DNA from: Haloarchaeobius amylolyticus
GTDB taxonomy: Archaea; Halobacteriota; Halobacteria; Halobacteriales; Natrialbaceae
Length of the DNA stretch: 64,000 bases
Assembly: GCF_026616195.1 (NCBI RefSeq)
Contig: NZ_JANHDH010000003.1
Location: forward strand, 558,001 to 622,000
Direction: 5' to 3'
Shown: piece after piece, positions 39,727-40,429 of the stretch
Layout: each line of letters begins with the position of its first letter
Numbering within the stretch: the first letter of the stretch is position 1
Position numbers and translations under genes: made by a program
The notes under the pieces: generated by a model
What the model saw: only the letters and a program-made list of their open reading frames with translations
Database searches by the model: none
What the model was told of the DNA's origin: nothing

Positions 39727-39820
39727 GGAGCGGGTGGGATTTGAACCCACGTTGGACCACTGAAGTAGCTCCAGACCTCGCGCCGCAAGGCGAATACCGG
39801 TCCGGAGACGCTACCGCTCC
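39727..39820 (-). ncRNA. Y-like RNA with tRNA acceptor and T-arm (copy 1)
   Basis: 94 nt. Acceptor GGAGCGG/CCGCTCC and T-arm GTGGG-TTCAAAT-CCCAC are perfect. The D and anticodon arms are replaced by a long hairpin: stem CTCCGGAC/GTCTGGAG, internal loop CGGTATT opposite CGAG, apical CGCC-TTGC-GGCG. The motif GCGAG-GTC-TGGAG-CTACTTC (39781-39762) is its 3' strand. No 7-nt anticodon loop exists, so it cannot decode. Same plan as 39841-39970 and 40302-40429. Confidence 0.75.
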
Positions 39821-39840
39821 GACGCGCGGGTCCCCGTGCC

Positions 39841-39970
39841 GAGACCGATGCGCCGGGAATCGAACCCGGTCCGTTCGCTGAGAACGAAGTAACTCCACGA
39901 CTCGCACCGGCCTGCCGGTGAAAATACGTGTGGAGGGATGTTGCGTGGCGACCAGCCCTGCATCGGTCTC
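39841..39970 (-). ncRNA. Y-like RNA with tRNA acceptor and T-arm (copy 2)
   Basis: 130 nt. Extended 11-bp closing stem GAGACCGATGC/GCATCGGTCTC, T-arm CCGGG-TTCGATT-CCCGG. Inside: CTCCAC/GTGGAG stem (39935-39930 with 39898-39893), internal loop ACGTATTTT opposite CGAGTC, apical CACCGG-CAGG-CCGGTG, and a second arm CGTTC-TCAGC-GAACG where the anticodon arm would be. Motif GCGAG-TCG-TGGAG-TTACTTC at 39905-39886. One extra C separates T-stem and acceptor stem. Confidence 0.78.
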
Positions 39971-39989
39971 GTCACGACCGCCCGCGACG

Positions 39990-40016
39990 GGAGTCGAGTG
40001 TGCAGGCCTCGACTCC
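39990..40016 (-). ncRNA. 9-bp hairpin after the compact tRNA-like element
   Basis: Arms 39990-39998 and 40008-40016 (GGAGTCGAG/CTCGACTCC, minus strand) with a 9-base loop. It directly follows the 58-nt element at 40021-40078 on the minus strand and may be a processing or termination signal. Confidence 0.45.
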
Positions 40017-40020
40017 GGAG

Positions 40021-40078
40021 GACACGGGTGGGAGTCGAACCCACCTGAACCGTCGCACGGCGAGCGTGCGACCGTGTC
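40021..40078 (-). ncRNA. Compact D-armless tRNA-like RNA
   Basis: 58 nt: acceptor GACACGG/CCGTGTC, one hairpin TCGCACG-CTCGC-CGTGCGA, an 8-base joint, and T-arm GTGGG-TTCGACT-CCCAC. Nothing like a D-arm fits between acceptor and hairpin and the hairpin loop has 5 bases, so it is not a working tRNA by sequence. All three helices are perfect, which argues for selection on structure. Confidence 0.65.
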
Positions 40079-40120
40079 GGGTGCCTCGGCCTCGCGGCGT
40101 CATCGGCGGGTTTCGAATTT

Positions 40121-40147
40121 ACACGGTGTACACATTCTACACCGTGT
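40121..40147. ncRNA. 10-bp perfect hairpin in the array
   Basis: Arms 40121-40130 and 40138-40147 (ACACGGTGTA/TACACCGTGT) with a 7-base loop. Lies upstream of the compact element on the minus strand; the surrounding 60 bases are more AT-rich than the rest of the array and could hold an internal promoter. Confidence 0.45.
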
Positions 40148-40175
40148 GGAAGTTCTGGGCGTGTCAAACATTGAG

Positions 40176-40322
40176 TCGCGCTCACTGTCGTTCGCGCACG
40201 ACGAAGGGCGAGCAGGAATCGAACCACGGTCTCTCGACCGCTCCCTGATTCGATCTCCTCGCAACTCCGCATCGCGCTCACTGTCGTTCGCGCACGACGA
40301 AGGGGCGAGCAGGAATCGAACC
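40176..40322. repeat. 50-bp direct duplication ending in a T-loop
   Basis: 40176-40225 and 40272-40322 are the same apart from one extra G in the second. On the minus strand the unit starts at the T-loop of the Y-like element 40302-40429 and covers its 3' acceptor strand and flank. The downstream copy has a broken T-stem (CGTGG against CCTGC), so it is a truncated element. Its own 5' part has a CGGTC-GAGA-GACCG hairpin and a poor copy of the motif (GCGA-TGC-GGAG) near 40263-40274. Confidence 0.8.
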
Positions 40323-40429
40323 TGCGTCTTCTGGCTGCGATCCAGACGGAATTGGCCGAAGGAACTCCACGACTCGCACTGGCAGCAGTGAATAGCTGCG
40401 TGGAGGTGAGAGTACTATCCTATCGCCCC
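40302..40429 (-). ncRNA. Y-like RNA with tRNA acceptor and T-arm (copy 3)
   Basis: 128 nt. Acceptor GGGGCGA/TCGCCCC, T-arm GCAGG-TTCGATT-CCTGC, and an anticodon-like arm TCTGG-ATCGCAG-CCAGA with a 7-base loop. The Y-like domain stands before it: stem CTCCAC/GTGGAG, internal loop GCAGCTATT opposite CGAGTC, apical CACTG-CTGC-CAGTG; motif GCGAG-TCG-TGGAG-TTCCTTC at 40377-40358. The 9-base 5' and 6-base 3' loop lengths equal those of copy 2 although the apical stems differ in sequence. Confidence 0.78.

Follow-up and report, generated by a model that had tools for sequence, protein, structure and literature searches.

Three tRNA-like chimeric RNAs, all encoded on the minus strand, lie in a haloarchaeal tRNA array that ends with a gene for a TROVE/Ro60-like protein. 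Each contains a hairpin whose two stems (S1 and S2) flank an asymmetric internal loop with a U-rich strand facing CGA; NTNCTTC follows the hairpin. This covarying module is found almost only beside TROVE genes, and it exists in two circular permutations. Ro60 takes part in RNA quality checking in animals and bacteria, and Y RNAs are found in animals and some bacteria. The chimeras and their permuted relatives are quite probably archaeal Y RNAs, which would bind the Ro60 protein of the adjacent gene.

The window, as the whole 64-kb stretch of analysed DNA is called here, shares this locus with a congeneric genome (G002) at 86% identity. An earlier note had placed three elements with one common order of parts in the array, reading each as a tRNA acceptor and T-arm enclosing a two-part hairpin; their positions and shared order are confirmed, on the minus strand, and the proposed architecture is supported. 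The chimeras and the genes around them are listed below, with scores from R1, a covariance model of the hairpin module.

37451-38920, minus strand: TROVE/Ro60-like protein of 489 aa; ends the array, downstream of the chimeras and on the same strand
39472-39547, minus strand: tRNA-Lys (TTT)
39595-39669, minus strand: tRNA-Lys (CTT)
39727-39820, minus strand: chimera 1; acceptor GGAGCGG/CCGCTCC, T-arm GTGGGTTCAAATCCCAC; a D-arm would not fit
39762-39807, minus strand: module core of chimera 1; R1 50.9 bits; kept in G002
39841-39970, minus strand: chimera 2; acceptor GAGACCGATGC/GCATCGGTCTC, T-arm CCGGGTTCGATTCCCGG, module and variable hairpin
39886-39935, minus strand: module core of chimera 2; R1 60.5 bits; kept in G002
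40020-40079, minus strand: 60-nt tRNA-like RNA with acceptor, one hairpin and T-arm, without the module; folding z -3.1
40302-40429, minus strand: chimera 3; acceptor GGGGCGA/TCGCCCC and T-arm GCAGGTTCGATTCCTGC around module and variable hairpin
40358-40405, minus strand: module core of chimera 3; R1 54.0 bits; compensatory change in G002
40602-40919, minus strand: 105-aa protein, family unassigned; 92% identical in G002
40922-40996, minus strand: tRNA-Glu (TTC)

The pattern TATTN{6,26}GCGAGNNNTGGAGYTMCTTC occurs three times in the 64-kb window and never in 100 dinucleotide shuffles, and each whole chimera folds better than its shuffles (z -2.9, -4.2 and -3.4). The minimum-free-energy fold equals the proposed structure throughout in copy 1 only and in part in copies 2 and 3. 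Copy 3 alone favours a GCAGC/GCTGC hairpin, and the alternative GCAG/CTGC pairing of this copy also covaries once (ACAG/CTGT in G002). As had been claimed, the internal loops of copies 2 and 3 measure 9 and 6 nt and their apical stems are CACCGG/CCGGTG and CACTG/CAGTG. None of the chimeras has the cloverleaf with anticodon arm and D-arm that defines a tRNA; none is called by ARAGORN, nor by Rfam at gathering score, where weak sub-threshold matches are the only ones. Elsewhere in the array, the hairpin of the 60-nt RNA changes from CGCAC/GTGCG to CGCGC/GCGCG in G002 with pairing kept. A tRNA-Asp is called in G002 at the position equivalent to about 41249-41300 (minus strand), where ARAGORN makes no call in the window despite an intact T-arm. 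The stretch at 40207-40300 (minus strand) is a tandem repeat of the 3' end of chimera 3, comprising T-arm, acceptor strand and about 30 nt beyond, and stretches resembling it are found near tRNA genes of other haloarchaea.

The order of the module halves in the chimeras is termed A..B. In most copies elsewhere, and in two further RNAs of the window, the halves are circularly permuted (B..A). In this form S2 is predicted to be the terminal stem, and S1 to close on NTNCTTC and a T-arm, to which a closed acceptor-like stem is often added. The two candidates in the window are:

39018-39089, minus strand: short Y-like RNA immediately 5' of the Ro60 gene; GGGG/CCCC, loop CGA / GGTTTT, 9-bp stem GTGGGAGCG/CGCTCCCAC, TTACTTC, GC-rich hairpin; folding z -3.4
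39152-39283, minus strand: YrlA-like RNA; terminal stem TCGGG/CCCGA, loop CGA / GGCTTTT, 9-bp stem GGGGTGGCG/CGCCACCCC, TTCCTTC, hairpin, T-arm CCCGGTTCGAATCCGGG, closed stem CGTCGC-ATC-GCGACG, further hairpin

The longer RNA folds with a z of -3.2 (0/200 shuffles as good); it has a T-arm and a closed acceptor-like stem, with weak D-arm likeness, and its region gives no match to the Rfam Y RNA families. The shorter one recurs at the equivalent site of G002 (L017:8788-8858), and the archaeal virus HGTV-1 has a counterpart in the same position. A placement of the short RNA within the TROVE reading frame was considered and dropped, because homologues put the TROVE start downstream of it. When the 64-kb window was scanned, 336 B-half strings yielded three paired modules, all within this array; chimeras 2 and 3 fall below the descriptor cut-off of that scan because of a bulge in S1. 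In other islands, B..A RNAs occur in the gap between tRNA-Glu and tRNA-Arg. At two loci (L088:3223-3287, minus strand, and L060:3172-3236), half A of one RNA can pair with half B of its neighbour, and therefore a long transcript could adopt two alternative folds.

The 489-aa protein has both domains that define Ro60, a TROVE domain (Pfam, 1.8e-24) and a vWA domain (vWA_Ro60, 8.4e-10). Its start at 38920 was set by BLAST alignment of homologues from other loci. A profile built from seven island TROVE proteins finds solved Ro60 and Deinococcus Rsr, with most of the match in the C-terminal part. The 105-aa protein has no match in Pfam or NCBIfam; many other islands encode weak homologues (27-44% identity) next to TROVE, located downstream of that gene and often also of a tRNA-Gly, and the protein looks like a further component of the island. 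The tRNAs between chimeras and TROVE differ between the window and its relative, with two tRNA-Lys in the former (39472-39669) and tRNA-Val, -Ala and -Asn in the latter (L003:2258-2482).

TROVE is encoded in 30 of the 292 genomes of the class that were searched, and all 32 TROVE places of the other 29 positive genomes were examined. Between 5 and 31 tRNA genes accompany TROVE in 30 of these 32 places, the exceptions being L070 (none) and L071 (one), and most TROVE islands also carry tRNA-like RNAs missed by ARAGORN. R1 matches 19 of the 292 genomes, all 19 among the 30 TROVE-positive ones and none among the 262 TROVE-negative ones (Fisher p 2e-22), absences that are not absolute because 20 of several thousand first-look candidates were scored per genome. 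Its 24 matches each lie 1.2-4.4 kb from TROVE; 18 of them belong to the training set of the model, and the remaining six come from those same islands. The B-half pattern occurs in 27/30 TROVE-positive vs 15/262 TROVE-negative genomes. Ten loci with this pattern were inspected on both strands: all seven that lie in TROVE islands have modules, and the three outside islands have no partner half on either strand. A descriptor tuned, like R1, on these same TROVE loci finds 103 sites in 33 of 34 of them (the window and G002 included), all on the TROVE strand, with none on the opposite strand of the 34 loci and 0-2 per shuffled set; these shuffled sets, like those of the window scan, were drawn from a first-order Markov model and do not preserve dinucleotide counts exactly. 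The one locus without a site (L071) holds a shorter second TROVE copy, and the other copy in that genome has five sites. Scans for the A..B motif in viral and genome contig collections gave one and eight matches, respectively: the viral one (L020) has no tRNA there and was set aside, and the eight are bacterial records taken as chance. A TROVE protein search of the viral contig collection found no relative.

Seven haloarchaeal plasmid loci were obtained after the descriptor had been tuned (hosts Haloarcula halophila, Natrinema versiforme, Haloplanus sp. HW8-1, Halobaculum roseum, Halosimplex aquaticum, Halorussus limi and Haloferacaceae XH8). All seven have 2-3 modules on the TROVE strand and none on the other, in a set where two islands are identical and some hosts may be the same species as surveyed genomes. 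The identical pair, in Halosimplex aquaticum and Halorussus limi (L135 and L136, 2500-8600), agrees over 6.1 kb in hosts of different families, which points to recent transfer. Genes for orc1/cdc6 and a type B DNA polymerase lie near four plasmid islands (L131 and L134-L136) and may belong to the element that carries them. No module was found in four TROVE loci of bacterial plasmids.

The TROVE protein of HGTV-1 is 49% identical, and RtcB is also present in this virus. A second element there (L125:9022-9153, NC_021328), annotated as a tRNA-Asp with intron, carries as its insert an A..B module with nine paired S1 positions, and it is probably a chimera of the kind described here; R1 matches it weakly (E 0.022), and neither of the HGTV-1 RNAs is detected by the strict descriptor.

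These distributions bear on an unlikely alternative, in which the tRNA-like RNAs would bind a partner other than Ro60, as decoys for anticodon nucleases or as ligands of the small island protein, and would merely travel with TROVE. The 5-31 tRNA genes in 30/32 loci and the conserved small protein fit such a partner. However, the TROVE gene of one genome (G201) has one B..A RNA directly before it and no tRNAs within 9.2 kb, so that the module follows TROVE rather than tRNAs; HGTV-1 likewise retains a B..A RNA directly upstream of TROVE, and no TROVE-negative genome gave an R1 match among the candidates scored.

Compensatory changes occur within the module in relatives. The apical stem of copy 3, CACTG/CAGTG, reads CACCG/CGGTG in G002. 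The part common to the tRNA-like RNAs of the islands consists of S1, a strand with UUUU or UAUU at its end, S2, CGA, the second strand of S1 and NTNCTTC. In an alignment of 21 A..B modules, 95.2% of cells are paired (34-45% in slid controls), both sides have changed in 11 of 16 pairs (0/500 shuffles as high), and double-change cells number 36 vs 8.6 in shuffles. The B..A set comprises 53 sites with 35 distinct end combinations, double changes in 15 of 17 pairs and 52 further pair types vs 31 in shuffles; its pair percentages are inflated because rows were chosen for pairing, and its information lies in the variety of pair types. The earlier note had held that compensating base changes keep the structure, a claim that was to stand or fall with homologues in other species; since these do show such changes, both in copy 3 of G002 and across the 21 modules, it withstands the comparison. 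In a search with 0.7 kb of DNA, other haloarchaea were matched mostly by short stretches, not by whole chimeras, and a frequent one corresponds to query positions 104-250, around and behind a T-arm.

It is very improbable that these elements are decaying, functionless tRNA pseudogenes, a reading to which the count of tRNA pseudogenes in such clusters (Morgado and Vicente 2019, available text of PMC6333295) and the duplicated T-arm fragments near 40207-40300 would lend themselves. It is disfavoured by the compensatory changes in S1 and S2 across genera, by the invariant loop and tail, and by the strand and locus specificity. The bulge-helix-bulge motif of archaeal introns consists of two 3-nt bulges around a 4-bp helix. 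Least probable of all is that the chimeras are precursor tRNAs with such introns in the anticodon arm, spliced to normal tRNAs, as the annotation of the HGTV-1 copy and the introns listed for some clusters (PMC6333295, available text) might suggest, since the internal loop of 9/6 or 6/3 nt is unlike that motif (by eye), chimera 1 has no space for a D-arm, and the module is also found in the permuted order, in which splicing would have no meaning.

The reading as Y RNAs would assign the Ro60-binding site to the S2-loop-S1 stem. This putative role rests on analogy: an interrupted stem at the RNA ends is what Ro60 binds in Y RNAs (PMC4726728, in the part available), and in YrlA a stem of this kind is fused to a tRNA mimic. 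In the common form, S2 would be terminal and S1 would close on a T-arm or on a tRNA-like domain whose acceptor is closed, an arrangement like that of YrlA. The chimeras would have the reversed topology, in which a short loop caps S2 and the presumed Ro60 stem takes the place of the tRNA anticodon arm; their open acceptor stem could be cut and CCA-tailed by tRNA enzymes. The tRNA-like part may recruit a tRNA-handling partner, and Ro60 held by these RNAs would then be directed to tRNA-shaped or damaged-tRNA partners, in the setting of mobile islands in which spare tRNA genes are found as well. Bacterial Y RNAs link Rsr to PNPase, and their operon is responsive to tRNA damage (PMC7790460, in the sections accessible). 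The link of the module to mobile tRNA arrays and to an archaeal virus hints that it acts in tRNA rescue or in anticodon-nuclease conflict. We regard as an evenly balanced proposition the fuller model, in which haloarchaea, their plasmids and at least one virus would have a distinct Y RNA branch, with a Ro60-binding stem that is joined to tRNA parts in two circular permutations, the open form being a Ro60-carrying tRNA mimic matured by the tRNA machinery in mobile tRNA rescue islands. If the Y RNA reading is true, Ro60 biology would gain a third domain, with several RNAs per locus, and the two topologies of one stem would separate the part that Ro60 requires from the tRNA mimicry.

Part of this setting has been described. 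Haloarchaeal tRNA gene clusters with TROVE in 20/29, plasmid links and tRNA pseudogenes are of the same island kind as the array in the window, and the available text of that report does not mention Ro60, tRNA-like RNAs or Y RNA (Morgado and Vicente 2019, PMC6333295). For HGTV-1, 36 tRNAs and RtcB have been published, with no mention of TROVE or Y RNA in the accessible part of the paper (PMC8651126), and TROVE has been reported in jumbo phages and Borgs (PMC7824862, PMC11208441, each in the part at hand). A literature search, with most subscription papers and all preprints outside it, found no report of archaeal Y RNAs. TROVE-bearing tRNA clusters were already known, and the archaeal Y RNA set is most likely undescribed so far.

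Among known RNAs, the mascRNA/menRNA family (RF01684) shares a T-arm and hairpin with the array RNAs and gives weak Rfam matches on 39847-39908 and 40021-40078, but these are below the gathering cut-off and the context is other. The Rfam Y RNA families give no match, even at permissive thresholds. A kink-turn reading of the internal loop was rejected by eye. To our knowledge, metazoan Y RNAs have no tRNA-like part. They resemble the haloarchaeal RNAs in a terminal stem with an asymmetric interruption and in the Ro60 partner, but the metazoan Ro60 site is a 7-bp helix with a single bulged C and a 3-nt bulge opposite, whereas the haloarchaeal loop sets CGA opposite a U-rich strand of 6-7 nt and so lacks the metazoan form (PMC4726728, available part).

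The closest likeness in architecture is with YrlA, in which a stem formed from both RNA ends is joined to a tRNA-like domain with a T-arm and an acceptor-like stem (PMC8394870, in the text available). As with YrlA, the haloarchaeal RNA genes lie beside TROVE, and 39152-39283 and the B..A RNAs elsewhere fit the end-to-end stem, T-arm and acceptor-like arm in part, while the D-arm that also belongs to the YrlA type is only weakly resembled in 39152-39283. Predicted folds and covariation give an end-to-end stem in 39152-39283, 39018-39089 and the B..A RNAs. In the three chimeras, by contrast, the predicted ends form a tRNA acceptor and the presumed Ro60 stem is internal; for this reason they are termed a permuted variant, not members of the YrlA group. 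They thus differ from YrlA in having open acceptor ends and an internal, capped stem, and the haloarchaeal RNAs as a whole differ in being archaeal, present in several copies per locus and embedded in tRNA arrays.
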